64,000 nt of DNA from Sanderia malayensis (lineage: Eukaryota; Cnidaria; Scyphozoa; Semaeostomeae; Pelagiidae). Where the stretch lies: NCBI GenBank assembly GCA_013076295.1, contig RQOL01000616.1:1178001-1242000 (forward strand), in the 5' to 3' direction. The translations under genes and the position numbers were made by a program. Shown in pieces: positions 277 through 18,954 of the stretch; the stretch's first letter is position 1; each line of letters begins with the position of its first letter. A model generated the notes under the pieces. That model saw nothing but the letters and a program-made list of their open reading frames with translations, searched no databases and was not told the origin of the DNA.

Positions 277-3200
277 TCATTTAGCAGAAACATTGGCAAG
301 AGATTGTATGATTTCGTAATAAATATCAATGCCATTGAGGAAGATGTCTTCGTTTAAAAATTCATTGTGGTCGTGAAGTAAAATTGGTGTGTGATTCATC
401 GGCGAGAAACCAAGAACAGGTATGCCAAGCTGCAATTGAAAGAATAATATATACAGTGGAATCCCGCTATAACGAACCCTGTAGGGACCGAGAAAATAGT
501 TCGCAATAGCGGGAGTTCGTTATACAGAAGGGACATTTTCTTATGAAGAACCACTTCCCAGAATCCAAGGGACCGGAGTTTTAGTTCGTAATAGCGGGAA
601 GTTCGTTATAAACGGGGTTCTTTATAGCGGGATTCCACTGTACGCATAAATCATCATAATAACGCTCGCATACAGGGAGACAAGGGTCGTGCAAAGGCGA
701 CTCGGGAAGTCCTATGGGGCTCTAACACAGGGGTTCACTGTTATGTTAGAAGTGGAAACTAGCTCTAAAAACATTGCAAACATGCAATTAAGTGTGTATT
801 TAGCCGTTATTATGCTGCACACGTGTTAAAACTGTACACAAGCATAAAAGCATTGCATACATCAGTTGTGTTTAAACATACCTTCCTAATACGCGAGCTG
901 TCTGTTCCTGCGGGAAACACTTCACATTGTGTTTTGATGTTCCTGCAAAACAATTGCGAGCAATGTATTTCAGATACATACATTGTAGTGACAAAGAGTC
1001 AAACAACCCCACAAAACCCGTATGCATTATATTGCAAGCATAGCACTACAAATATAAAACTGCAATTAATGCATCATATTGCAAGAAGCGTCAGGGCATT
1101 AAAACAACGTGCATTCTTATTGTAAGAGTCACAGAAAAACCCACATATAGGAACCTGGACTTCTACATAGAGCCTGTATTGCTTATTAGCGATGAAACAA
1201 ATTTCAGAATAGGGATAGGTAGTCTAAAGTTGTATTAATGTATTAATTTCATTTTCGTTCTCTTTCTGACGTACTACTCTGATGAGTGTCAGACGAAAAG
1301 CTTTAGTATTTATTACGTTTCGCTATGTTTCCGATTTTCAAAGCAATTTTGAATTTTTGTACCGATCAAAGACTATTAATGTGAGTGTTAACTACAGCTA
1401 AGCTTCCAGAATATTTTTCATGGAATCAGGGCAACGACGTAAATTTTACAATGAAGAAATACCTGGAAATACTGGCTTAGGTTCTTAAAAAAAATACCTA
1501 GAAATGTAGGTTGTTAAAAGTGGTTGGCTCATATATGCCGGCTTTTATAGCAAAGTGCGCTACATATGCTACAATGCAGTGTAACACATGTGAATAGAAG
1601 CATACGAAAGTGCCATACAATTGCATATGGATACCCTTGCAACGTGTACTCACAGTTTTTTGCAAGCGTTGCTGAAGGCGTCCCACCACGGGTCTCCTTC
1701 TTCAATTGAGGTCAGCTCTTCGGCATCTATTTTCTATCAACAATAAAAACAATTGAGTAATGACAAGAAGAACGGTCGGAATTCAACATGCATCAAGATA
1801 CTCTGATACCTACATCCTGCAAAAGTGCTTCAACAGTCTTCAGAAACTTGAGCACCCCAAGAGGAATAAACAATAGTTTGTGCCTCTTGAAGAAGGTAAA
1901 ACAATAGTTTATGCCTGGGGGCTTATTCAGGACTCGAAGCTGGAAAAAAGGGACTTACTCGAAAAGGGGGACTTATATTCAAAACTTCAAGTTTAAGAGG
2001 AGGGGTATCGAAAGGAACTCGAGATAACTTAACTGCGTACATTAGTAAATACAACGAAATCTTTCCGTGTAAAATTGATGTACAAAGATAAAATAAAACT
2101 GGTTAATATTGACCTGAACAAATTCGTACGAGATATCACTTCCAGCATTTTGTATCCATCCTTTAACTCGCTTTTCAAATTCCTAAGAAGTAAGAACCGC
2201 TATTATATATATCCTTATATAGATTCTTGATAAAGTGAACATAATGAAAAATAGAATCACTAGACTCTATACATATCACTGGGCATCAACAATGCGTGGC
2301 TAAACTTACAACGAGTTGTTCAGAATGTGCTATCCTGATATCCACGCCTAAAATGGAAAATCCAAAAAAAATTTATAATTGAGTCACTTGTACAATGAGA
2401 GATGAAAAAGTTATATTTGATCTATAAAAGTTCAAATGCACGTGGAAACGTTTCAGGAAAGTCTATTCAAAACTTACCAACTACGAAATTTTCAGGAACA
2501 ACATTCATCGCTACGCCTCCCTGAAAAAAAAACAAAACCCCTTTTTTAATCAATCCAAATATGATAAATTCAACTCCATCATATTAAATAAGCCGCAACA
2601 TCCCTACCAAGCCCCCTCTTTGATAAGTTCCCCTTTCCCCTTTTGAAACGAGAATTTGAACTAAGCTCCTTACGTAGTAACCCCTTCTTGCCTTGGAACT
2701 TATGAACGATGATGAAATTGTGATAAATTACACAATAAAGGCTCACAACAATTATTTTCCAGTTATTTTACGCAAAAATTTTTCTGAAGTTACTTGAGAA
2801 TTCTATCAAGCCCCCTCCCTTTTAAGCCCCCTCCCTGTCAAGCCCCCTCCCTATCAAGCCTCCTCCCTATCAAACCTCCTCCCTATTAAGCCCCCTCTCT
2901 AATAAGCCCCCTTTTAGAACCTCAAAAAAATTACCCCGCCCGGGTTTAAGGGAGCTTTTACGGTATATAGTATAGCGTAACATTTTGTATGATAATCATA
3001 GCTAAATAATGTCAACAAACATTTATCATGTTGATGTTACACGTCGTTACATTTCCAAGCGTCAAACAAGAGTTGCCATCCAAGCTAAAATAAACAACCA
3101 AAGACTCTCAACAATTTTTTCTCTGAATTTTGCTCCGAAAATTGTTTTCATACATGATTAATGATATAAAGGCACATAGATATATTTTTTAAATTCCACT

Positions 3201-6200
3201 CACATGGATTTTTGACTTTCTCTGTACTCTTGAATTTGGTTGACAAGTTTCCTCTGTTCAACAAGATATGATACTGTTAAAGATAATGCCGTGATTATCT
3301 GACCAAAGACGGGCTACTATAACCCCAAAACTTAAATTCAGAAAGAAAAAAGTTTTTCCCACCACTTTTTCCACAGCTGTATCTTCAATAAATCTGGAAC
3401 CATGTCCGGGCTTTCCTTTGCAAGTAAATTTTATCCCTGAAAAACATATATTTTACAGATTTACAGTATTTTTCAAAGCAATCAAAATTTACTCCATGAA
3501 GCAACCATCGCAATCGTGACATTATTGCCATCAATGACTCAAAAATCTTCAGGCAATCTATGAACTTTGCCTGAAGATATTTGCAAACATTGCGTCAAAA
3601 TGTGCGCAGCTTTTCACCCAAATTACTTGGACACCTTAGTTAAAGATCGAAACTAGGTATCAACAAACTTTGAAATACCAGCATATAATAAATTGGTTTG
3701 AAGTGAACAAAATAAAAACGAAATATTTAACTTAAAATAGGTGTCAACTTTAGCTGAACAGTTTTGAAATATTTGGCTGCGAAAATATGTGAGATCCTGC
3801 AGAAATAGTTATGCATATTTCCTTAGATTGTCCGCATATACGTTGACTGGAAAATATGTTCACGATTTGACTCGAAATAACTGCAAACCTTGGTTAAATC
3901 CAGCTAATATATCTGATAAGCATGTATTGACGTGTCTTAGTATCACTGAGGAATAAATTCGTTTTACTCACACCAGATTGATCTCTGCCCATTGTAAACG
4001 GTGAATTCTTCACCAGGGTTTGCCAGACCTAAAACCCGAGACAAAACAACTCATTTCGACAATGATGACAAAATTAAATTGAATCATTCTGGATTCTATT
4101 TTGAAGTTCTGTACCGATCAAAGATTGTTCTATCCACTAACTTCGACGTATGAACCGGGCACCACAGTTAATGCACAGTTGAGAAGAACTAAAGTCGCTT
4201 CAGCTCGAATTTAATTGGCTGTGACATAACGTCAACGTACGAACATAGCCTTGCTGCTTAAAAATACCTTCGTCTAATCCAAATCCAACTTTCATTTCCT
4301 TAAACATGTCAGTTTTTATGAATTTGGCAATGCCTAAATGTCCTCCAACTTCTTCCTCTAACAAAAGAAACGCACAGGATGTTTCAAGCAATAGAAAAAA
4401 ATTTGATGAGGCTGGAGGGAATCTAATTGAGCGAAAATCAAGAGAAAACGGTTGAATTAACCATTTGGATTGAGAAAACTAAAAGCAAAACTTACCAGGC
4501 ATAAATGTGAGATAAATGTTTCTCAATAAATGCTTTCCTTCCTGCTTCAGTCTTCTTACAGCTTCAAGGTACCTTTACGGTGAATAGAAAAACTATCAAG
4601 CTTAAAGGCATCAAAACGTAAAAAGAACATATTCACTTTGAGAATATGTAAAGATATGCATGGTTGTGGAAGTAATTAAATGCATAGCAAAGTAGATTTA
4701 AGTATATTTGAGCAAAGGCTAAAAAATCAGCTTAATTGGTATAAAACCAGCCAAGCACAAATGTAGAATAATTTTTACAAACTTACTGAATTCCAACACA
4801 TTTCATATCCTGGATGGAAAGAAATTGTTATAATTAGATATCAAGATAATTTGACAAAATTACATCATTTTAAGGAATAAAGTCAAATACATTGATGAAA
4901 GTATGTGGTCATAGTGTCCTAATTTGGTTCAAAATATCTGAAAGCTTTCAACAAAACACCAGTTCACTCAAAATAGCACACACAATTGCTGGCTCGAACA
5001 GATGAAGATCCATATGTTGGCTCAAATTAAGTAGAAATATGTCATCAAAAAGATGCAAATTTTGCTCCAAATAGATCCACAAGACTTTCCATCATGCCTA
5101 GATAGTTACCTGTGATCCTCGGGCATAAATGTCACCATTGGCTTCCTTTACAGCTTCAAAAGGATCATGCCTCCAGGATTCCTGCATCAAAATTGAAAGC
5201 ATCAGACAAATGTCACATAAACTAGCAACAATTCATGATAATCTAGAATATTTACTAATAGGAAAGTGAGCTGAAGTATTGTGCCACCTTGTCCAAAATA
5301 GTGTCTACAAGTACGCTAAGGTCTGAGCAAAAATATTTGCTCAACAATATATAGACATCAAAAGAGCTTCAATGATAAATTCCTTGAGCAGAAATGTACT
5401 CGAAATTTCGTAAATATTTGAGTGAAAGCATAATTTAAACTATATCACAGCTTTAAATTTTTCAAAAATCTAAAATGTAATTGGTTCACTATGTAAATTT
5501 GAACAACCATTTGAAATGACAATTCAAAAGAGATATAATAACAAATACCAACTGAATACAAATATGGGTCGCATTAATGGAGCAGTCAGATTAACTGGGT
5601 TACCATGAGAGAACTTAGGTGCTAGGTTAAAATTGATAAGTACCCTTAAATGGTTAAGCAAGCTAGAGAAGACTTCATATTAAAAATTCAAGCATCAAGC
5701 AAGTTAACAGTAAAATAGTAAAGATAGATGTTTGCCATATCAAAGGAATCAAGCTAGAAGATATTAAGATGGAGATTGTGGATAAACTTACAGGGAAAAC
5801 GGGAACAACATCTGTATGACTATATAGCAAAATACTGGGCAGCGACTTGTCTTTTCCTTCCCAACCACAAACAAGCACAGGTTTCCCTGGATGCACCTGA
5901 AAATTAACATTCTCAATTTGATTTTGGTTAGGGGTTCAATATGGGGCCTGCCTAAGCAACACAAATCCTACAAAGTTGACCAAACAATACTTTTAGACAC
6001 CAGGGAGAAGTTACATGCTTTATTCCAAAAAAATATTTGGCTCCAGTTTTTTTCATTATTTTTCAATTGTTGCCAGTATATGTCACTTTTTCAGCAGATA
6101 CACAGACATTGACAAAGTGTACTATGCAAAGTGCAGCTATTAGAGTCTTGGTTTTTACTGTAGTCGGAGCCGGAAAGGAGAAACACGTTTATGTATGCAT

Positions 6201-6603
6201 TTCCGCCACACTTCAAATAATCAACTTTGTATATATACCTCAATCAATTGGACATCAAGCCCAATTTCCTGTGCAATTTTTGTGAGGAAAACCACAGCAG
6301 GATCTAAAATTTCACGATACTGATTCTTAAATCAATTAAACATGAAGCAAAATCAAGATACTCAAGGTACTATGTATAAATAAAAAAATGAACATGCAAG
6401 GTCCATCATCCAAAGAAAGGACTGGAGTTTGGCCGACCGTGGTGGGCCTAGATTATAATTAATCATCCAAAGTAACTTTTCTTACCATAATCTGGATCTG
6501 GGTGAACAGTTTGGATTCTTAGATAATCACGAAAAAGTGTTACTGCATTATCTTCGCTCAATTTCTGTCGCTTTGGGCAATGTTCAGTTCCGTTTGAGGC
6601 CAT
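277..6603 (-). CDS. ACY1: Aminoacylase-1 (N-acyl-L-amino-acid amidohydrolase), 17 exons
   Basis: Cytosolic M20-family zinc enzyme that releases free amino acids from N-acetylated ones. I assembled 17 exons with consistent phases: 6486-6603, 6239-6303, 5792-5896, 5110-5181, 4787-4809 (23-bp microexon), 4496-4572, 4268-4357, 3972-4028, 3363-3436 (donor uncertain by 3 bp), 3204-3298, 3021-3084, 2478-2520, 2310-2347, 2114-2182, 1654-1733, 882-942, 277-429. The product is about 427 residues (human about 408). Metal and catalytic motifs are present in order: SHTDVVP, GSQDMKC, PEEEVGGH, GLDEG, KPGHGSRF, GGVAMNVVP, FPAGTDSSRIRK and a C-terminal LLHDHNE. The start is the first ATG, followed by VTLFRDYLRIQTVHPDPDY, which matches the family N-terminus. 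Exon 10 adds a few residues relative to human. The gene appears intact. A large transposon begins 123 bp upstream of the start codon and may affect its promoter. Confidence 0.93.
454..640. mobile_element. Pogo/Tigger-like MITE, 187 bp, in ACY1 intron 16
   Basis: Terminal inverted repeats start CAGTGGAATCCCGCTATAAC at the left and end with its near reverse complement at the right. TA dinucleotides at 452-453 and 641-642 fit a TA target duplication. The internal halves are also roughly symmetric. There is no coding capacity, so it is a non-autonomous Tc1/mariner-pogo type element by terminus style. Confidence 0.8.
1265..1320 (+). ncRNA. Candidate hammerhead-ribozyme-like core
   Basis: The sequence holds a CTGATGA box (1279-1285), a short potential stem, and CGAAAA (1294-1299). 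The flanks GACGTACTACT and AGTATTTATTACGT can partly pair as an open stem I. This is the box order of type I hammerheads known from Penelope-like retroelements and retrozymes of animals. Stem II looks weak (two clean base pairs), so it may be decayed. Confidence 0.3.
2805..2925. repeat. C-rich minisatellite in ACY1 intron 11
   Basis: About seven imperfect copies of a 16-17-bp unit resembling AAGCCCCCTCCCTATC, preceded by related C-rich text from about 2600. It lies between ACY1 exons 11 and 12. Similar AAGCCCCC phrases recur in dispersed repeats elsewhere in the window. Confidence 0.75.
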
Positions 6604-6725
6604 TTTGCTTCGAAGAAGGAATGAAACACCTGCTATATCGTGTTGCCGACCGATTCCAAAGCGACCACGCCCCCCCCCCCAAAAAAAAACAGACGGCTAC
6701 GTCCTCTCTTCTCCCCGCCCCTAAT
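6604..6725. promoter_or_regulatory. Residual ACY1 upstream region and left target-site duplication
   Basis: Only about 115 bp separate the ACY1 start codon from the transposon. The stretch contains an 11-13-bp C run followed by an A run (6670-6689). The last six bases, CCTAAT at 6720-6725, are the left target-site duplication. Any core promoter or 5' UTR not contained here now lies beyond the 9.8-kb insertion, or has been replaced by transposon sequence. Confidence 0.5.
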
Positions 6726-6779
6726 TACCGTGGCTGATTTGGACAACTTAGTCCTTATCTAACACTTGCGGTAAGACTG

Positions 6780-6894
6780 GCGGCCGCTTATCGGGATTGG
6801 CGGCCGCCTGTTTAAAGATACGCGGCCGCTTGTTTAAAGATACGCGGCCGCTTGTTTAAGATGAGCGGCCGCTTGTTTTGAGATGAGCGGCCGC
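6780..6894. repeat. Left subterminal GCGGCCGC array of the transposon
   Basis: Six copies of the palindromic octamer GCGGCCGC start at 6780, 6800, 6822, 6844, 6865 and 6887, spaced 20-22 bp (about two helical turns), with linkers like TTGTTTAAAGATA. Two CTGGTC(T/A)GTATTTTGTTT motifs follow at about 6911-6970 and recur inverted near the right end. Regular phasing suggests protein binding, most simply by transposase; a promoter role is also possible since the transposase start codon lies about 120 bp downstream. Confidence 0.9.
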
Positions 6895-7017
6895 TTGTTT
6901 TGAGATCTCTCCTGGTCTGTATTTTGTTTGCTTGAAGAAATTTAGTCCCTTCTGGTCAGTATTTTGTTTACACGTTTTCACGTGGTTTTATTATTATTTG
7001 ATTTATACATATGGAGA

Positions 7018-8202
7018 ATGAACACAATCTTACAAGTAGAACGTGCTGAAAATGCATTAACCGACGACCTGGTAACGTACTATTCAAATCTGAAAACACT
7101 AAGCAATAAGGAAATATGTAGCTTGATTAATAATAATCATCAAAGAGATTTAACTCTTCGTCAATTGAGGTACATTCGAAAAAGGCTTTGCTTGAAAAGG
7201 TACGACGAAGTTTCATTTAACGACTTGATGGACATTGTTAACAACGAGCTTGATACATCAAATAAACACGTTGGATATCGCCAGATGACCGAATTCATTA
7301 ACGTGAAGTACAATATCTCAGTGTCAAAAGAGAAAGTAAGGCGTATATTAAGTATTGTTGATCCTGATGGTGTCGAAGAACGAAGAAGAAATGCAATTAG
7401 AAGGAGGGTTTACCAAACATCTGGCCCGAATGATGTGTGTCATGTAGACGGAAACGATAAGCTTAAAAAATGGGGATTTTGTATTCATGGAGCAGTGGAT
7501 GGGTTCAGTCGAAAATTGTTATGGTTGAAGGTTTCATCAACAAACAACGATCCCTTGGTTATTGCAAATTTTTACCTCGACAACATTAAGGAACATGGGA
7601 TTGCACCAAAGGTTGTAAGAATGGATAGAGGGACGGAGAATATTTATATCGAAGATCTCCAGATATTTTTCACAGGTAGTCAAGAAAGTTTTTTGTATGC
7701 AACTTCCACACGAAACCAGCGAATTGAATCATTTTGGTCCAGATTAAAAAAATATCGACTTTCTTGGTGGATAAACTTCCTTGATAAAATGGAAAAAGAT
7801 AGATTATTTAAGTCGTATTTAGAAACTCACGTGGAAACATTACTGTATGTTTTTCTTCCAATAATTCAAAATGAATTAGTCGAGTTTGGAAGAGTTTGGA
7901 ATTCTCGACATGTGAGACAATCTGCCGCTGCACCTGGAGGGAAACCCGAAATTTTATACACATTGCCGCATCAAATAAACTTCAGTGAACAGGGAATAAT
8001 GGTTACAAATGAAGACCTTGCCATAGCTTCAGAAGTTATCGGAATAAAACACTGTCCAGTTGCCAAGAATGATGATCTCAATCAATTACTTTCATGTTAT
8101 TGCCAAAGAGATAATATAATCAGGCCTTCAGATGCATGCACGGGATTAGACGTATATGTCACATTATTAGGGTGTTTAGAAAGTGATGGCTTTGAGATTT
8201 AA
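7018..8202 (+). CDS. DDE integrase-core transposase (IS3EU-like)
   Basis: Single-exon 394-residue protein from the ATG at 7018; the frame is open further upstream to about 6964 but without an earlier ATG. The N-terminal 130 residues are helical and HTH-like (SNLKTLSNKEICSLINNN; LTLRQLRYIRKRL). The integrase core follows with the three acidic residues in VDGNDKLKKWGFCIHGAVDG, VVRMDRGTEN and TRNQRIESFWSRLKK, matching the family of integrase core domain proteins annotated widely in fish and invertebrates. It presumably cuts and joins the element ends at 6-bp staggered sites. No frameshift or stop was seen, so it looks functional. It reads inward from the left terminal array. An AATAAA-like signal lies about 15 bp past the stop. 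Confidence 0.9.
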   Translation: MNTILQVERAENALTDDLVTYYSNLKTLSNKEICSLINNNHQRDLTLRQLRYIRKRLCLKRYDEVSFNDLMDIVNNELDTSNKHVGYRQMTEFINVKYNISVSKEKVRRILSIVDPDGVEERRRNAIRRRVYQTSGPNDVCHVDGNDKLKKWGFCIHGAVDGFSRKLLWLKVSSTNNDPLVIANFYLDNIKEHGIAPKVVRMDRGTENIYIEDLQIFFTGSQESFLYATSTRNQRIESFWSRLKKYRLSWWINFLDKMEKDRLFKSYLETHVETLLYVFLPIIQNELVEFGRVWNSRHVRQSAAAPGGKPEILYTLPHQINFSEQGIMVTNEDLAIASEVIGIKHCPVAKNDDLNQLLSCYCQRDNIIRPSDACTGLDVYVTLLGCLESDGFEI

Positions 8203-8988
8203 CCCTGTGTTATTTCTAAAATAAACGTTCAGATTTGTGAAGGTTAATTTTTCAGATTTTGATAATTTTATTCATTTCTTCCCCCTGTATTTAACTCATT
8301 CATGTTTTTAGCGCCCTGTAGACGTCGTAGCAGCAAAAACCACTAACAGACGTCATTGGATTTCTTTGTCTCAATTTTTTTAAGTGTTATTGTTTAAAAT
8401 TGCTTGCAAAATTGATGAGTTCGTACACTTTTTTTAAATAAGCAACTAGACTTTGGTCCAGCCCTGAAAGTTGCTTAAAATTTTGGATATTTTAGCCCTC
8501 AAAGTTGCTTAAAAGTTGCTTAAAATTGTTTGTACCTATAACAGCCTCTCCTGTCCCCAGGGTACCACCCCTAAGTCTGTGGGTCAAAGTCATCAACTGT
8601 AACGCCTACAACATAAGACTTAAGAGACAGTAAGTGTAAACATGTTAGTCAAGAACTTCAACAGCACAGTGAACATTCGTGCCCAGTTTTAGCATTCTAA
8701 AATAAATGACGTTTGAATTCTTAGTTGCTAACAGTAATTCAATTGAGCCCTCGAGTTGCTTAATGTTAGGGTCAATCCAGCCGTAGTTGCTTATTGAGCG
8801 GTTGCTTATTAAAAAAAAAGTGTATGACAGATGATCGTTGGATGTCAATAGTTGCTAAATGTAATAACAATAGTTATACCATAAGAAATAATTTGGCATA
8901 TGTACAAGACGAAGGCCACAAAACAGCCTAGCGTATGTTTGTGTATATTTCATGGAAATGTTTTGCACGGATCAGTTCAAAGATTATA
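8203..8988. other. Non-coding spacer inside the transposon
   Basis: No supported gene. Repeated AGTTGCTTA words occur at 8440-8530 and 8750-8830 on both strands, suggesting a degraded small repeat. The rest looks like AT-rich 3' flank of the transposase gene. Confidence 0.4.
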
Positions 8989-10853
8989 GACAGGGAAATT
9001 ACTACAACCATCTAGCAAACTGCGTAACACTAAATTTTATTTCGGATTCGGGTTTCCCATGTTAAAAACTATCTAAAACTGCCAGGGGCCATTTCGGGCG
9101 TGCTCCGATATTCACGTGATTTATGACCACACCTACTCACTGTGTGGGAAAAAATTTTTTGGACTTTTCGAAAAAATTTTCACCAATGTATAGTGCATCA
9201 TAAAGCAAGAAATAAATTATAAAACACTTACTACTTTTCTCTCACCGTTCAGGGGGTTCAGCGTCTCAGAGTTTGTGTTGTTGTTGTTGTTAGAAAACAT
9301 CAACTTTTCGATACATCGCGTACAAGCCGAAATTTTCGAATCGAAATCCATAGTTATAATAAAAATACTTAAAGTGGTGTATTTACACTATCTACAATGT
9401 ATCTTTGTCTTGTCTAGAAGGTTTTATCGAAATATCAAGCCAGCCATCCGTCGCACGAATCTTCACTGGACAGAAAGTCCGAAACTTCCCTTTCATCTGC
9501 TTCAGATAATATGGCTGTTTCTGCGTTAGATAGCGTTGTTTTATCATCAGCATTGTAAATGCTTGCCGATTCTTTATCTTCGGAGATGTCTTTCATGGCT
9601 GTGAGAATTGAAGATATCTCCCGTTTTCTTTTCTTTGTTTTTGACGCGGTGGCTTCCCTTGACTCATCTCCTGCATCGGCCGAGGCCTTTTGGGAAGAAT
9701 TTCGTTTTTCCTCTTTTTAGTAGAAAACGACCCTGGTAACTGGCTTCCAGTAAACCATACTAGCGATATGATATTTTCCACGGGATCCCATTGACATCCG
9801 TTTTCTTCAAAAAGGATTGGTGCCACTTGCAATAAATCAACATCTCCTAGCTTCTTCTTGAACTTCTGGAGAACACAAACCTTTCCAGCTTTGTAAAATT
9901 ACGACCTTGAGTCACATCCTGTTAGACAGGGCAGTGCTGGTAACGCAAGTGACAACTTCTCTCCAAGAAATTCGTTTATTGGCACTATTATGTAGGAATC
10001 CCTGCCAATTTCCTCCCTGTAACATCCTTTGCTCGAAACCTGTTACATGCACTTGGGCTCCGGGTGCACCTCAGATGAGGCATACTTGAGTACGAGAATA
10101 CAGCTATATAAAGAAATGACAGCAAAATCATCTATGGGCATACCACTAGACCCCAAGTCAGTTGAACGCGCAAGTAAACGCTGCCATCATCAAGCATTTT
10201 GTGGTATCGTTGTAACTTGCCGCAAGTGGCACCAATCCTTTTTGAAGAAAACGGATGTCAATGGGATCCCGTGGAAAATATCATATCGCCAGTATGGTTT
10301 ACTGGAAGCCAGTTACTAGCGTCGTTTTCTACTAAAAAGAGGAAAAACGAAATTCTTCCCAAAAGGCCTCCGCCGATGCAGGAGATGAGTCAAGGGAAGC
10401 CACCGCGCCAAAAACAAAGAGAAGAAAACAGAAGATATTCTCACAGATTGTAGGTAAATACACCACTTTAACTAATTTTATTATAACTATGGATTTCGAA
10501 TCGAAAATTTCGGTTTATACGCGATGTATCGCAAACTTGATGTTTTCTAACAACAACAACAACACAAACTCTGAGACGCTGAACCCCCTGAACGGTGAGA
10601 GAAAAGTAGTAAGTGTTTTATAATTTATTTCTTGCCTTATGATGCACTATACATTGGTAAAAATTTTTTCGAAAAGCGCCAAAACAATTTTTTCCCAGAC
10701 AGTGAGTAGGTGTGGTCATGGATCACGTAAATATCGGAGCACGCCCGAAATGGCCCCTGGCAGTTTTAAATACTTTTCAACATGGAAAAGCCGAATCTCA
10801 AATAAAATTTAGGGTTAGGCAGTTTGCTAGATGGCTGTAGTAATTTCCCTGTC
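8989..10853. mobile_element. Nested long-inverted-repeat (foldback-like) element
   Basis: Arms at about 8989-9835 and 10203-10853 are inverted copies; both start GACAGGGAAATTACTACA and are bounded by TA at 8987-8988 and 10854-10855. The right arm lacks about 190 bp present in the left (about 9398-9590). The inner parts of both arms encode the same peptide in opposite directions (QVAPILFEENGCQWDPVENI), a relic of an ancestral coding sequence. The spacer is about 370 bp. It is non-autonomous, of unassigned superfamily, and inserted into the larger transposon or its ancestor. Confidence 0.8.
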
Positions 10854-11777
10854 TAAATTTAAAACAGGTTCAAGTTGCTATTAAGGGCAATTATTTCATT
10901 TTTTATACAATTGAGTCATTAAGTGTCATGTAAGCATCTGAACGGGCAGGAGATTCTGAAATAACAAAAAGCACTGAAAGGCTATTGAAGTTTGCAGTTA
11001 GTGTGTCTGTGAATTGTGAGTGTATGAAACTTGAAGGGGACCTATATTTTCAGAGAAGCAACCGGCTCAGGGGAAGGACATTCCAAAATTTTGGGGATGT
11101 TGACATACTTGGGACCGACTTTTGCATGAACATTTCTTTGGACCGACTGAAATGTACCGTGGCTCAAATAATTTTGGCTACCTGAGGCGGCACCATGGTT
11201 GCTGCCGAAGGGGGAGATTTTACAAATTTGGTGCCTCAGATATCGCTGAAAAATGTATTTTTTTTGCAAATCTACTATTAGTGGCCAATACCACTTTAAA
11301 TTATGCAGCCAGTTGAACTTGAATGTTATTGTTTGAGATTCGTGAAGCCAGACTCGTTTAAAAACAATTTTTAGGGCGGGATTGATTTTAATATACCTAG
11401 TAACTAAATTCCCATTGTCTCCCCCCACATGCCCTAATGTGCGCCCCTAGTATTTCTACATTCGGTTATAACGGACAGTACGGATCACAGTTTTCAACAT
11501 TGAAGAAAGGACAGCAAAAAATCGTTTGTGTATTATTGATATAATCTACAAGTCCAACTACACTTGTAAATGATATCAATAGGACTGGAAGCAAGTTAGA
11601 TACAACCATTGAAAAACACAGTTGAGCTAGCTTTCACACACAACGAGTCATTTGAATCATCATGATTGCAAAATAAAATTAAGTTGAAAATATTTAACTG
11701 GGGGGCACTTTTGTTGAGTGGGGGGGGCACCACGAGGGCTGGGGGGTCAAGGCCGCCCAGTCTGTATGCTAAAAAAA
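10854..11777. other. Transposon interior without a supported gene
   Basis: Non-coding by inspection. A 128-codon open frame on the minus strand (11042-11428) has no recognisable domain and overlaps other open frames. G-runs of six to eight at 11700-11750 could support G-quadruplexes. Confidence 0.4.
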
Positions 11778-12164
11778 CAGTGGTGATTCCTAAAAAAATT
11801 AACAAGGGGGGCTCCAAAAGCAACACCTCCAAAGTGGGTGTGGTTTTTTGTGACCACACCCATATTTTCATTGGCGCAAATATGAAAAAGAGTGCTCACA
11901 AAAACCAATCCAGACCAAACAATGGTTTATAAACCCTCTAAAGGGATAGAAACAACTGAATAAGACACCGACGATACGAGAATTAACATCTGGCATGCAA
12001 CGGACATCAGAATCTTTACAAATGAGGCCTTTAAACTGTAACTTTTGGATAACGAGAAATTTTGCAGAGCGTAGATAGAGATTGTTTGGGGGGGCTGAGC
12101 CCCCCCCCAAAGTCATCATATATTTTAAGAAGGGGGGCTCCGTCCCCCTTAAAAATCACCACTG
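11778..12164. mobile_element. Possible small inverted-repeat element, G/C-run rich
   Basis: CAGTGGTGATT at 11778 is matched by AATCACCACTG ending at 12164. The inside holds several GGGGGGCTC-type runs, an internal hairpin TGGGTGTGGT/ACCACACCCA at about 11836-11868, and a C/G-run hairpin near 12090. No clear target duplication was found, so the boundaries are tentative. Confidence 0.45.
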
Positions 12165-12813
12165 TAAAAAAGGCCCTGAATTGATGTCCGGTCTGAAGCC
12201 ACTGTCGGAAAAATGCCCATATTGTTCTGATATGCATAACTGTGACAAAGAAGATACAAGTCCATGTTAACGGCATGACTACTATGAAGAAATTGAAAGG
12301 TAAAAACCTTAAATTACCACTGCTTGTTTTGGCAGTTTCAAACAAAGAACAGGGAAATGAACAAATCCATACCTGCACGATATACTGTACCTTTTGAGAG
12401 ATATACTTCGATTCATAAAAGAGAAATGCGCTTTGAAATTATGAAGCAACATTACGGCACGCTACGACACATGATTTCCTCAACTACTGCCGTTTGCATT
12501 TTGGTATTTTGATTTTTGGTATTTTTCAAACAAGTGATTTCCACAACAAATACAACGACAAAAATTCATTAATAAATGCAACAAAAATAAAGCTTTTTAT
12601 ATCTTAGCAATATATCCTCGAATAAAAAAATGTAACAAAACTGAAAAAAACAAAGCCTTAGCCAACAAAACGAGAAACAACCGAACTCTCGCGTAATCCA
12701 AGAAGTGGATAACTTGTAACATTTAACTAGCTAAGTGATGTAACTGTAAAAGTAACAACACCGGTTTAACAAAGGTTTCTTATTAATTATTGATTAACAT
12801 AAGTTATAAATTG

Positions 12814-15800
12814 CTAAATGCTTCCAAATCCTGCACCAAATTTCACAGCAACTTCCAAGTTTTTAATTGTATCTTCCAAAGGCAGAGTAATATATAGACC
12901 ACAGGTTGAAATGCGTAAAACATCCTTTTCGAAAAACACTTCGATAGGTTTATCGAAACCAAATAGGGGAATGCTTTCGCAGCTTGTGAATAGGAAAAGT
13001 AACTGCTCCAGAGTAACACCATCCACATCTCCATTACCAACTTCTGCAAAATACACTTCCAAATCACAAATCAAATTATTGATCGTGGAAAAGTCATTTG
13101 AACCTTTTTCCGCGGTGTTTTGAAATTTCAGCAATCCAAGGAATTCAGTTAAACTTAAACGTTTGTTGCTTGGTAGAAAGAAGGACTTCAGATGCTGGAA
13201 ATATTTGTGATCAGCAAGAACAGAACTGATACTTAAAATGCCATCCTTAAACTGTTGAATAGAACTCGCGTTTTTGAATAACACGTAGCTCAACGCAAAC
13301 AGTTTCTGGCATTCCTCTGTAGTGCCCACAGGATTTATTTCCATTTCAAACAGGTCATCTTTGTTTCCCTTGGAGATGTTGTCAAGCTTGAATTTTAGTT
13401 CCGCATCATCAACACTTAAAACTGTTGATAGTGCAGATTGGTGACCGAACAAGTAATCGACCAGTGCTTTATGAAGGCAATGTGGCCCCCTACCAATATT
13501 CAAAATAGACACAGCAACAAGCTGCCCTAATTTGTAATAATCCTGGTGAATGATTCTCTCAGGAACAGACTTTAAGCATAAGGCATTCTGATTTCCAAAT
13601 GTTATTCCTGATATCAGACAAAACCTGTTCATGGCCAAGGTCAAAAACTCCCTGAACGGACCTGCACCAGAACCAGCCTCTCCAGCAAAACGAATTTTTA
13701 CCTCATGCTTTGATAAATCAAAGTTTTGTTTAAATATCAATGACCAAAAGCGATCTTTATCCCTTTGCACGATTACATGTTTAATATCCTTCAATCGTCC
13801 TTCATATACTTCTTTTGCATCTTTCAAGTCAGGCACAGGAATGACATCATCATCTGGCAATAGTGCTTCATCTTCATTTCTACTCCTCAAGCAGGAGTTT
13901 CTCATAAATCTCTCCACTTCTGCTTGACCAAATTCGTCAGCGGCTTCCCTCAAATCGGTTTCATCTGTAGAAGTGCCTGCGCTAGGATGCCCGTTGTTCA
14001 CCAAAGCCTCTTCGTCAGTTAATTCACTTTCGGCACTGGCTTCTTCTGTAGGATACCCCTTGTTCACCACAGCATCTTCCTCAGTTGATTCCATTTCTTC
14101 CCTGGCTTCTTCTTCCGTAGAAGTGCCTGCGCTAGGCTGCCCGTTGTAATCAGACAAGGTAGGTGATCCTATGGAATGTCTGTATCGTAGCGGACGTCTT
14201 GAAGGCCTTGAGAAATATCTTACCCTCGCTTCACGTAAATTAAACTCCGGTGTAGTTTCGTATGTTGCCGCGGAAAGTTCCCCAGGTTCATTATTTGCGT
14301 CGTCATGTGCAGTTGGAGATAACTGAAATAAGTGAAATTGTCACAAATCATTATCAATGTTTTTTCAAATTCTCTAATCTGAATCTTATCTAAGGCATCC
14401 AATAAACCACTTTCATATTCACGGAAGTTCTATTCAAATACATCTTCAAACAACGTTAGCCTCGGCATGATGTGTTGCAAAATCCCAAAGCGTGCATTGC
14501 TCTCAAATTTACAAGCCATTTCAATGTGTTGCTAAAAGCCATGCACGATTTGGGATTTAGCGACACATCATGCTGACACATCATTTGGTAACAGTGCTTA
14601 AAGGTCAGCTGACCAAGTTGGAATTCATTGAAGTGATATACTTCAGCAATCAAAATGTAGATGTTTGTTAGGTAAGCTTAAACTGTTGCTTATAGATCCT
14701 GTATTATAAAGACAACTTACAATTGCTGGGTTTGAATTTTTTCTTCGGTCACAATTCAAGCTTTCCTGGAATTCTTTTTCTTGTGTGCACCTCAAACAAG
14801 CAGTTCCAGGTGACATAGTGCAGGAGCAAGCAGGACAAACCAGAGATTTGTTGCATGTTTGTCTGATAGTTGATGAGCCTGAGTTATTTATGTTTGAAAT
14901 AGGATCTACATCAAAATCTTCGTCACTTGACATTCCACAATCTTCTAGAAGTGCTTTGAACTGCAGTTTTGTGTACGCAATCGGAACAAATAGATATATA
15001 TGGACTGCTTTCTTTTTATCTTTCATTTTCAAGAAGTAATTCTCTAGGTTGGTGAATGACTCTTTGATCTTTTTACCAGAGTAGGTCCCCAAGTAAGAGG
15101 CAATATGACTGGCCACTTTAAATTTCTGTATGCATATTGAATGGATTTCATCATATAGAGCCTGCCGTTTTACTTCCATACTAAAGCCTTTATTTAATTT
15201 ATGCACATATTTGTTTTTTTCAAGACACTTCAGTCCAAATTGCACTGTAAGGTTTGGTTTAACTGTTACTGGTTTTTGTGACGTATTAAGTCTTGAAGTG
15301 TGTGTTCTCCGTATTCGCAATTTTAATTCCTCAACTTTCTCACGATAATTTGCAGTGGTAGTGGTAGTGGTAGTGGAAATCTGATCTTTAGGAAATGTTT
15401 CATGAAAAGACAAAAGATCACCATATAGTAGACCCATTTGCAATAGAATTTCATCACTGCATTTATGAGCTATACTGTCATCAATTTTGTTCAACTTGAA
15501 TTGCGGAAGTAAATAACCACATCCTCGTAGGCACAGAAATTCATCAACCTGATAAAAGCAAAAATAATTAATTTAACAATTAGAACAAACATTTGATGAA
15601 ACGTTCCACCACTAGTATGCCCAAAAATTAAAGAAATTTGCAACCTTTTAACTTTTAAACTTTTAAAATTTGGAGTGAAAATTTGATTAGCTTTCAACTA
15701 ATAAAGCTTAAAAGCACTCTTTTTTGACTTTTGGTGGTTGAGAGGTTGGTCAAAAAGTTTCTCTTCTGCAGTACATTATTAAGTCAAATTGACATATAGG

Positions 15801-16016
15801 CCTCCTAGGCTCCTACGCCTAGGCCTAAAACATAACTCTGTTCTTGTTGAATTGCTATTTGCTAAAACTAAATAAAGCACTCTTGGCTGGACAAAAGTTT
15901 ATATTATAGTCCAAATTACTGTTTTTTGAATTGCTTACCTTGTGATATAAAGGATTGTTGTCCACAAGTCCAGACACCAGCAGATCATCTGGCTGCACGT
16001 TGCTGCTTTCCGCCAT
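12814..16016 (-). CDS. Transposon-encoded zinc-cluster HECT E3 ubiquitin ligase
   Basis: Three exons join in phase 0: 15939-16016 (26 codons, from the ATG), 14721-15548 (276 codons) and 12814-14322 (502 residues plus stop), giving 804 residues. The N-terminus MAESSNVQPDDLLVSGLVDN precedes FLCLRGCGYLL. A cysteine cluster VCPACSCTM...TACLRC lies at about residues 264-280. Next is an acidic Ser/Thr/Glu linker with a repeated PSAGTST unit, then a HECT domain over roughly the last 350 residues (KIRFAGEAGSGAGPFREFL in the N-lobe). The C-lobe ends RISTCGLYITLPL...GAGFGSI, so the catalytic Cys (about residue 776) is present. It resembles the G2E3-like HECT proteins annotated in fish and cnidarians. 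It converges with the transposase gene; its ATG lies 70 bp inside the right GCGGCCGC array. Substrate unknown. Confidence 0.88.
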
Positions 16017-16085
16017 CTTGCCATCTTATCAATTGCAATCTATACCGAGTCTAATCTATACCCTCGGTGCTCGTGCGTGAAACAA

Positions 16086-16427
16086 GCGGCCGCTTATCTT
16101 AAACAAGCGGCCGCTTATCTTAAACAGGCGGCCGCTTATCTTAAACAGGCGGCCGCTTATCTTAAACAGGCGGCCGCTTATCTTAAGCAGGCGGCCGCTC
16201 ATCTTAAACAAGCGGCCGCTTATCTTTCTGCCACTTATATATATCCTGCTATTTCCAGCCAGAAGATAACTTTACAGACCATAAAAAACAATTTACAGAC
16301 CAGAAAGACAATTTACAGACCAGAAAGACAATTTATTGACTGAAAAACAACATGCATAACACGCGAGGCAAGAACAGGCGGCCGCGTATCTTTAAACAGG
16401 CGGCCGCCTATCCTGATAAGCGGCCGC
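16086..16427. repeat. Right subterminal GCGGCCGC arrays of the transposon
   Basis: Seven GCGGCCGC octamers at 16086-16219 are spaced about 21 bp with TTATCTTAAACA linkers, followed by three more at 16378, 16400 and 16420 nearer the terminus. Between them are three ACAGACCAGAAAGACAA-type repeats (16272-16335), which mirror the CTGGTCTGT motifs at the left end. The long open frame through the first array is a by-product of the 21-bp period. Confidence 0.9.
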
Positions 16428-16499
16428 TTGTTTTGCCGCTAGTCTTATTACAAGTGTTAGATAAGGACTAAGTTGTCCAAATCAGCCACGGTACCTAAT

Positions 16500-16937
16500 C
16501 CTTGGCTAATCGAGAGGCAAATTTCTTTCAAATTGAAATGTTGCACACTCCATTATAAGCCTATGCAGTATAAATATAATAATTCACTTGTTGCAGCAAG
16601 TCAGCGAGCTTAACTTTTAAACAAACTGTCCTAAGGGATGAAATTTGTTGCAAAATGGTTAGAAGGTAATAGGTTCCTGCTACTTGTGAACCAAACTTCT
16701 CCGAACTTGGAGGTTTGGAAGCTCGATTTTGAGCTTTTATGACTTATGCATATAAAAATTGACTTGCTCCAGCATATGCCAACTTAACTTTTGAACCAAC
16801 TACCTAAGAGTGCTGAATGTTGTCTCAAAATTATCAGAGAGGACAATAATTATCTTGTTTTGTCCATGTTAGAGGTATGTATATGGGGAGGGTCCAACAG
16901 ATCCAAACCAATGTAATATTCAAGAGTTGTCAATAAG
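16500..16937. other. Host spacer with a diverged tandem duplication
   Basis: No gene seen. Two related blocks (about 16570-16690 and 16750-16850) share phrases such as CTTAACTTTTAAACAAACT and CTTAACTTTTGAACCAACT, indicating an old duplication of roughly 170-180 bp. Confidence 0.5.
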
Positions 16938-18954
16938 GCATGCTACTGCGAATATGACGTATGAGTGTCCATATGGCTTAGGCATAGTAGGCATTGGTTT
17001 TAGTAGGGTAAGGGTTACGCCATGCGGAGGAAAAAGGTGGTGAGGATGCGCAGTGGCCTGATCGTTGGCACTGCGCAGGAGCGTATATGACGTATGAGTG
17101 TCCATGTGTCTGAGGCATTGGCCTTAGGGTTAGAGTTAGGGTTAGGGTTACGTTATGCGGAGGAAAAAGGTGGTGAGGATGCGCAGTGGCCTGATCGTTG
17201 GCACTGCGCAGGAGCGTATATGACGTATGAGTGTCCATGTGTCTGAGGAATTGGCCTTAGGGTTAGAGTTAGGGTCAGGGTTACGTTATGCGGAGGAAAA
17301 AGGTGGTGAGGATGCGCAGTAGCCTGATTGTTGGCACTGCGCAGGAGCGTATATGACGTATTAGTGTCCATGTGTCTGAGGCATTGGCCTTAGGGTTGGA
17401 GTTAGGGTTAGGGTTACGTTATGCGGAGGAAAAAGGTGGTGAGGATGCGCAGTGGCCTGATTGTTGGCACTGCGCAGGAGCGTATATGACGTATGAGTGT
17501 CCATGTGTCTGAGGCATTGGCCTTAGGGTTAAAGTTAGGGTTAGGGTTACGTTATGCGGAGGAAAAAGGTGGTGAGGATGCGCAGTGGCCTGATTGTTGG
17601 CACTGCGCAGGAGTGTATATGACGTATGAGTGTCCATGTGTCTGAGGCATTGGCCTTAGGGTAAGAGTTAGGGTTAGGGTTACCCTATGCGGAGGAGAAA
17701 GGTGGTGAGGATGCGCAGTAGCCTGATTGTTGGCACTGCGCAAGAGCGTATATGACGTATTAGTGTCCATGTGTCTGAGGCATTGGCCTTAGGGTTAGAG
17801 TTAGGGTTAGGGTTACGTTATGCGGAGGAAAAAGGTGGTGAGGATGCGCAGTAGCCTGATTGTTAGCACTGCGCAGGAGCGTATATGACGTATGAGTGTC
17901 CATGTGTCTGAGGCATTGGCCTTAGGGTTAGAGTTAGGGTTAGGGTTACGCTATGCGGAGGAAAAAGGTGGTGAGGATGCGCAGTAGCCTGATTGTTAGC
18001 ACTGCGCAGGAGCGTATATGACGTATGAGTGTCCATGTGTCTGAGGCATTGGTCTTAGGGTTAGAGTTAGGGTTAGGGTTACGTTATGCGGAGGAAAAAG
18101 GTGGTGAGGATGCGCAGTGGCCTAATTGTTGGCACTGCGCAGGAGCGTATATGACGTATAAGTGTCCATGCGTCTGAGGCATTGGCCTTAGGGTTAGAGT
18201 TAGGGTTAGGGTTACGCTATGCGGAGGAGAAAAGTGGTGAGGATGCGCAGTAGCCTAATTTTTGGTACTGCGCAGGAGCGTATATGACGTATGAGTGTCC
18301 ATGCGTCTGAGGCATTGGTCTTAGGGTTAGAGTTAGGGTCAGGGTTACGCTATGCGGAGGAAAAAGGTGGTGAGGATGCGCAGTACCCTAATTTTTGGTA
18401 CTGCGCAGAAGCGTATATGACGTATGAGTGTCCATGTGTCTGAGGCATTGGCCTCAGGGTTAAAGTTAGGGTCAGGGTTACGTCATGCGGAGGAAAAAGG
18501 TGGTGAGGATGCGCAGTAGCCTGATTGTTGGCACTGTGCAGGAGCGTATATGACGTATGAGTGTCCATGTGCCTGAGGCATTGCCCTAAGGGTTAGAGTT
18601 AGGGTTAGGGTTACCCTATGCGGAGGAGAAAGGTGGTGAGGATGCGCAGTAGCCTAATTTTTCGTACTGCGCAGGAGCGTATATGACGTATGAGTGTCCA
18701 CATTGCTGAGGCATTGGCCTTAGGGTTAAAGTTAGGGTTAGGGTTACGTTATGCGGAGGAAAAAGGTGGTGAGGATGCACAGTGGCCTGATTGTTGGCAC
18801 TGTGCAGGAGCGTATATGACGTATGAGTGTCCATGTGTCTGAGGCATTGGCCTTAGGGTAAGAGTTAGGGTTAGGGTTACCCTATGCGGAAGAGAAAGGT
18901 GGTGAGGATGCGCAGTAGCCTAATTTTTGGTACTGCGCAGGAGCGTATATGACG
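16938..18954. repeat. 133-bp satellite with embedded telomeric TTAGGG repeats, 15 copies
   Basis: The GCGGAGGAAAAAGGTGGTG landmark recurs every 133 bp from about 17024 to 18886, giving 15 head-to-tail copies. Each unit contains a degenerate (TTAGGG)n stretch, a TGCGCAGT...ACTGCGCA inverted repeat with a 15-base loop, and TATATGACGTATGAGTGTCC. Copies differ by scattered substitutions. The array is bounded by the same 11-mer, GTTGTCAATAA, at about 16926 and 18959. There is no protein; open frames in it simply repeat. Confidence 0.92.

Follow-up and report, generated by a model that had tools for sequence, protein, structure and literature searches.

A jellyfish transposon, probably of the IS3EU/GingerRoot type, pairs a DDE transposase with a predicted HECT ubiquitin ligase

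A 64,000-nucleotide stretch of the genome of the scyphozoan jellyfish Sanderia malayensis (assembly GCA_013076295.1, contig RQOL01000616.1, positions 1,178,001 to 1,242,000; hereafter the window) contains an intact DNA transposon of about 9.8 kb (window positions 6726–16493), in which a DDE transposase gene and a predicted HECT ubiquitin ligase gene lie on opposite strands, tail to tail. Judging by sequence comparison, this is very probably a complete, recently mobile two-gene element of the IS3EU/GingerRoot type, with a putative ligase that would favour its survival or movement. Across the window's own assembly (184 Mb, 918 contigs), which is the genome searched here, such facing pairs occur at about 100 places, and we therefore regard the ligase as a standing part of the lineage: the HECT gene is a core second gene of IS3EU/GingerRoot-type elements in this animal, not a chance passenger. 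The initial annotation of the window had proposed such a stable second gene, and a near-identical second copy, four divergent families and 101 tail-to-tail pairs bear the proposal out.

The outermost 43 nt of the element, read from 6726, are exactly the reverse complement of the sequence read back from 16493, and both ends begin TACCG. Over the full terminal inverted repeats (6726–6784, plus strand; 16435–16493, minus strand), 59 nt match at 93%. The 6-bp target-site duplication CCTAAT flanks the element at 6720–6725 and 16494–16499, so that the exact 43-bp inverted ends starting TAC and the duplication described earlier are both seen on checking the sequence. Next to each end lies a subterminal array of GCGGCCGC sites, candidate binding sites for the transposase, with six on the left about 21 nt apart (6780–6894) and ten on the right (16086–16427). 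All 16 are inside the element and the remaining window has none; a related element on contig C688 has 15. Between the two genes stands a large imperfect palindrome (8987–10855, ~1.9 kb, arms 91–95% complementary), perhaps a nested foldback insertion, whose arms also match the copies on contigs C326 and C900. It accounts in part for the length of the window element (9.8 kb, against 5.5 kb for the related C688 element).

The transposase gene (ATG at 7018 to stop at 8202, plus strand) encodes a 394-aa protein whose integrase core matches rva_4 (Pfam, E = 8e-37). Alignment located the three acidic residues, reported earlier as all present, at D144, D203 and E237 (spacing 58/33); they are intact in the window copy, and D/D/E is kept in every aligned transposase row covering their positions. 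Pfam matched no zinc-binding integrase domain in the transposases scanned, giving rva_4 and weak helix-turn-helix matches only, and the transposase on contig C45 has a weak N-terminal zinc-ribbon match under the cut-off. A close named relative is P0025 of the hydrozoan Clytia hemisphaerica (72% identity over 83%). Outside the jellyfish's own genome, no relatives were found among prokaryote contigs or among viral contigs, and a protein search seeded with P0009 returned P0009 alone.

The HECT gene, on the minus strand, is predicted from the sequence to comprise three exons (16016–15939, with the start codon at 16016–16014; 15548–14721; and 14322–12814), with both introns running GT...AG and an 804-aa product whose sole stop is at its end. 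Gene models of two close copies (P0001 and P0002) have the exon-1 end and the exon-3 start as predicted and skip exon 2. Exon 2 encodes a Cys cluster and an N-terminal region that looks SAM-like by eye but matches nothing in Pfam; exon 3 encodes an acidic linker and the HECT domain, with the Cys776 codon at 12901–12903. The window HECT domain scores 22.7 bits in Pfam, slightly under the cut-off of 23.9, and as a single sequence it found no match among solved structures. A profile built from 23 relatives matches E6AP at 4.6e-9 and aligns the family's STC motif with the HTC of E6AP, placing Cys776 on the catalytic Cys. This residue is present in all 11 own-genome rows that reach its position (of 13 aligned) and in five outside proteins aligned alongside; the two remaining rows are C686b, which is partial, and C704, whose frame stops upstream. 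We infer that the gene encodes an active HECT ubiquitin ligase with its catalytic Cys kept, and the three-exon prediction and the E6AP alignment together agree with the spliced 804-residue protein, Cys cluster and catalytic Cys of the initial annotation.

G2E3 is the annotation name on many such HECT genes, and G2E3 itself carries PHD/RING domains ahead of its HECT domain. The proteins scanned here resemble it in their HECT C-terminus, and to that extent the earlier label "G2E3-like" holds, but they gave no Pfam match to PHD or RING. Because a PHD domain was not found in them, these HECT proteins form a type of their own. They share with HECT E3 ligases of the E6AP/NEDD4 kind the N-lobe GE-G-D-GG motif and the catalytic TC motif of the C-lobe, but they are very divergent, and their N-terminal part, which includes a Cys cluster, has no counterpart in Pfam.

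The ends of the window element recur on contigs C326, C900 and C577. C326 holds a whole two-gene element at another site, a further copy with both genes between the same ends of the kind the initial annotation had suggested looking for; it differs from the window element by 6 substitutions and 45 indels over 9.77 kb, encodes an identical transposase and has its own target duplication, ATTTGC. Forty of the 45 indels, nearly all of a single base, lie opposite window positions 13384–15857 (2.5 kb), where they break the HECT frame. Since so dense a cluster stands against only 6 substitutions in the entire element, it probably reflects unpolished assembly rather than decay. Read by eye, the C326 flanks resemble a LINE reverse transcriptase. 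Put together around a single ATTTGC, they recur at 8 further places with 97–100% identity and an unbroken junction, and at 6 of these the match covers the whole 269 bases; these uninterrupted LINE copies are related empty sites for the C326 insertion. A near-identical element, with a 6-bp duplication of its own, in a LINE with uninterrupted sister copies, indicates that the two-gene unit has transposed recently as a whole. C900 (target duplication CCTCGA, aligned pieces 85–97% identical to the window element, stops in both genes) is an older, decayed insertion. C577 is a partial copy with a HECT region containing stops and no window-type transposase match, and its right flank is the same as that of C900, to which it is therefore probably allelic, if not a duplicate. 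Full-length copies lacking the HECT gene, which had been named as the finding that would count against a stable pairing, were searched for in the window family and none was found; the partial C577 keeps its HECT region. No empty site was found for the window insertion: a search with the left flank recovered nothing but that flank, and the right one (16494–16993) consists of a dispersed repeat (58 match rows).

Beyond the window family, we compared 193 HECT loci, merged from searches with the HECT protein, the HECT Pfam family and three divergent family HECTs and including ordinary host HECT genes, with 224 transposase loci found with the window transposase and rva_4. A transposase lies within 5 kb of 105 HECT loci, and 101 of these pairs are convergent (tail to tail, with a median gap of 731 bp), 3 divergent and 1 tandem. 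When the transposases were placed at random (500 trials), convergent pairs numbered 4.0 on average and 10 at most. On contigs with hits beyond 1 Mb, 113 HECT loci divide into 57 convergent, 1 divergent and 55 without a partner, against a random mean of 0.8 convergent pairs (maximum 4), and in a narrower count, based on a smaller set of HECT queries, 128 HECT loci yielded 72 convergent and 3 divergent pairs. The 101 convergent pairs are spread over 55 contigs and count places rather than independent families, because some are near-identical copies or haplotypes. Taking the transposases as the starting point, a convergent HECT lies within 6 kb of 43 of the 65 intact ORFs (at least 400 aa, no stops). 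This figure is a floor, since of the other 22 the one whose tail side was read, at 1.04 Mb on C781, proved to face a convergent ORF with a very divergent HECT domain and an HTC motif (29.7 bits with a divergent-family profile, 8.9 bits with the window-type profile). Three more of the 22 (C866 at 0.31 Mb, C305, and C686 at 4.73 Mb) have a weak convergent match to the exon-2 Cys cluster (E 1e-5 to 8e-5), lying about 3, 3 and 8 kb, respectively, from their transposases.

Two observations belong beside these counts. In the 1.04-Mb pair of C781 a second ORF precedes the HECT ORF on the same strand (L068 1878–3083), and by eye its start resembles the SAM-like start of the window protein. Long ORFs (343–545 aa) that are convergent with transposases and weakly match the exon-2 Cys cluster, with no HECT domain detected, lie at C866:314023, C305:14227, C686:4727691 and C45:1259345.

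Element boundaries could be drawn for four further divergent families, in all of which TA...TA inverted repeats enclose both genes, and their transposases range from 49% (C688) down to 23% identity to that of the window over aligned columns. The C688 element (L015 4335–9848) is bounded by inverted repeats of 95 nt at 95%, with TACCG ends, and its HECT gene occupies two overlapping frames and must therefore be spliced or shifted. It is flanked by a perfect 16-bp repeat, AGCCATTTTCCATTAT, in place of 6 bp, a difference of about one helical turn. The mutual homology of the C571 and C781 elements stops at TATGGCACGCCAT repeats with TATGG ends; C781 is flanked by GAGATG (6 bp), and the near-identical C571 element (L062 ~1527–6306) by a 10-bp repeat, CAACAGTAAC. 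At 4.43 Mb on C686 the ends are TATGGGGCGCCAT (TATGG), matching at 30 of 30 nt, with a flanking duplication that matches at 5 of 6 positions, and the C613 element has TACGGTGGCCCAC ends (TACGG) and a GATGAC duplication. For C45, element ends were not found within the 6 kb retrieved.

The two genes have diverged largely in step. Distances between transposases correlate with those between HECT domains at r = 0.83 in 11 families (p = 5e-5, with the doubtful C686b left out), at 0.78 in 12 families including C686b, at 0.74 without C686b and C704, and at 0.71 (p = 0.001) when 9 spaced families are used. C686b, a divergent pair with a gap of 324 bp, was set aside as probably two neighbouring fragments, its HECT being window-like and its transposase C613/C45-like. 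Maximum-likelihood trees of the transposase and of the HECT domain have three clades in common. HECT frames are open for 670, 735 and 782 aa (stop to stop) in far-apart families, and these long frames probably tell more about constraint than dN/dS does. A comparison of dN/dS in the HECT domain among copies had been proposed at the outset; within families the domain gives 0.43–0.72, near the 0.45–0.53 of the transposase, and window-family exon 2 gives 0.11–0.17, but the changes are few, and overall the within-family values are uninformative to mildly purifying.

Several points weigh against the view of a complete, recently mobile element with a useful ligase. Within the window family, only the window copy has both frames intact in the assembly. 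The C571 element is discordant, its HECT grouping with C613 and C45 and its transposase with C686a, C675 and the C824 group, so that at least one exchange is likely. The acidic linker has a dN/dS of 1.2–1.3 amid the generally weak within-family signal, and in the C688 group the N-terminal ORFs reach 1.25–1.35, on one to three synonymous changes. The C704 HECT frame ends before the catalytic Cys, and 22 of the 65 intact transposases have no convergent HECT detected by search within 6 kb.

IS3EU elements are described in PMC10045372 as having TA...TA ends, usually 6-bp duplications and a DDE core without an upstream HHCC motif, which fits the 6-bp duplications and TAY ends named in the initial annotation; in rust fungi the IS3EU termini read TAYGG...CCRTA and the inverted repeats exceed 30 bp (PMC12730594). 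The elements reported here share TA...TA termini (TACCG in the window and C688; TATGG in C571, C781 and C686 at 4.43 Mb; TACGG in C613), 6-bp duplications (CCTAAT, ATTTGC, CCTCGA, GAGATG and GATGAC) and an integrase-like DDE core with no HHCC zinc domain matched, the exceptions to the 6-bp rule being C688 (16 bp), C571 (10 bp) and C686 at 4.43 Mb (one mismatch in six). By ends, duplications and DDE core, the element thus appears to belong to the IS3EU/GingerRoot type. Unlike IS3EU/GingerRoot as described, it carries a HECT gene, and "HECT" occurs 0 times in the main text of PMC10045372 and PMC12730594. IS481EU has a related integrase-like transposase and discrete duplication lengths, which the 16 bp of C688 recalls (as do those of IS481), but PMC10045372 gives it a single protein, TGT/TNT ends and duplications of ~4, 15 or 25 bp, whereas the ends here are TAC/TAT and the duplications are 6 bp at 5 of 8 insertion sites examined.

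DDE transposases with such ends make a staggered cut and insertion that leaves a target duplication, and HECT enzymes transfer ubiquitin through a Cys thioester. We propose that the terminal repeats and the subterminal GCGGCCGC arrays are recognised by the transposase, which would mobilise the element through staggered cuts that yield the 6-bp duplications, and that the ligase, acting through Cys776, would ubiquitylate a protein whose modification aids the survival or movement of the element. Host silencing, chromatin or repair proteins are the likeliest targets, at a little under an even chance. The transposase or its DNA complex (turnover, product release) is a less likely target, and something else is slightly less likely again. 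Our leaning toward a host target has two grounds. Fungal IS3EU elements carry other modifiers: according to PMC12730594, rust-fungus elements have an alpha-kinase gene opposite the transposase, and TET/JBP dioxygenases thought to counter silencing. The arrangement of a modifying-enzyme gene opposite the transposase, stated there for TET-bearing families, is the one found here, with a ubiquitin ligase in place of a fungal kinase. In addition, judging by the swap in C571, the ligase seems not to be bound to a single lineage of transposases.

That the HECT protein acts instead on the transposase, limiting its level or taking apart the transposase-DNA complex after strand transfer, is possible though on balance unlikely; tight linkage and co-divergence speak for it, as does the precedent of ClpX, which unfolds the Mu transposase complex, but a host target fits the same genetics and in C571 a HECT lineage seems able to serve another transposase lineage. 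It is decidedly doubtful that the HECT protein has lost its catalytic activity and serves as an adaptor or decoy. The sub-threshold Pfam score, two divergent family HECT ORFs without any Pfam HECT match and the loss of one residue of the N-lobe DAGGP motif in the window copy would suit an inactive protein, and the catalytic Cys, aligned to that of E6AP and kept in every own-genome row reaching it, argues for a working enzyme. Transposons do capture host genes, and fungal transposons hand TET/JBP genes passively between families (PMC12730594); a piece of a host gene captured once by a single element is nonetheless very improbable here, given 101 tail-to-tail pairs that include families with transposases 22–32% identical to the window's (aligned columns), a conserved catalytic Cys and correlated divergence of the two genes. 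Least probable of all is that assembly or haplotype duplication has inflated a few insertions into many, for while C571, C618, C737 and C781 are 99.97% identical over the 3.5 kb compared, C372 and C704 give near-identical scores and C577 has the flank of C900, flanks and duplications differ among C569, C326 and C900 and between C571 and C781, and the pairing spans 55 contigs and persists on those with hits beyond 1 Mb.

Whether the complete two-gene element has a wider counterpart is a larger claim, which we hold somewhat more probable than its negation: that the HECT gene is the ancestral, near-universal second gene of animal IS3EU elements, turning the ubiquitin machinery of the host against silencing or repair, and that much of what is annotated as G2E3-like HECT and integrase-core genes in cnidarians and fishes consists of such elements. 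If so, an animal transposon family with its own ubiquitin ligase would offer a direct way to study the manipulation of host protein turnover by mobile DNA, and many annotated HECT genes could be reclassified as transposon genes. Our literature search, which left Repbase and most subscription papers outside its reach, found no paper joining IS3EU with HECT and none recognised as describing a transposase-HECT pair. Among unclassified repeats of Cottus fish, one has a blastx match to G2E3 (PMC5638112), a hint of wider spread. PMC4255032 was considered and dropped, as the passages in question concern retroviruses.

In the C704 copy, which bears a HECT gene, the transposase is split by a reverse-transcriptase-like ORF (L059 4369–5736; Penelope-like by eye). 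The annotated protein P0122 likewise fuses a transposase to a reverse transcriptase, as in L059; for this reason P0122 and P0016, which have adjacent gene numbers, were not counted as an independent pair from another genome and are most likely the C704/C372 element of the same species.

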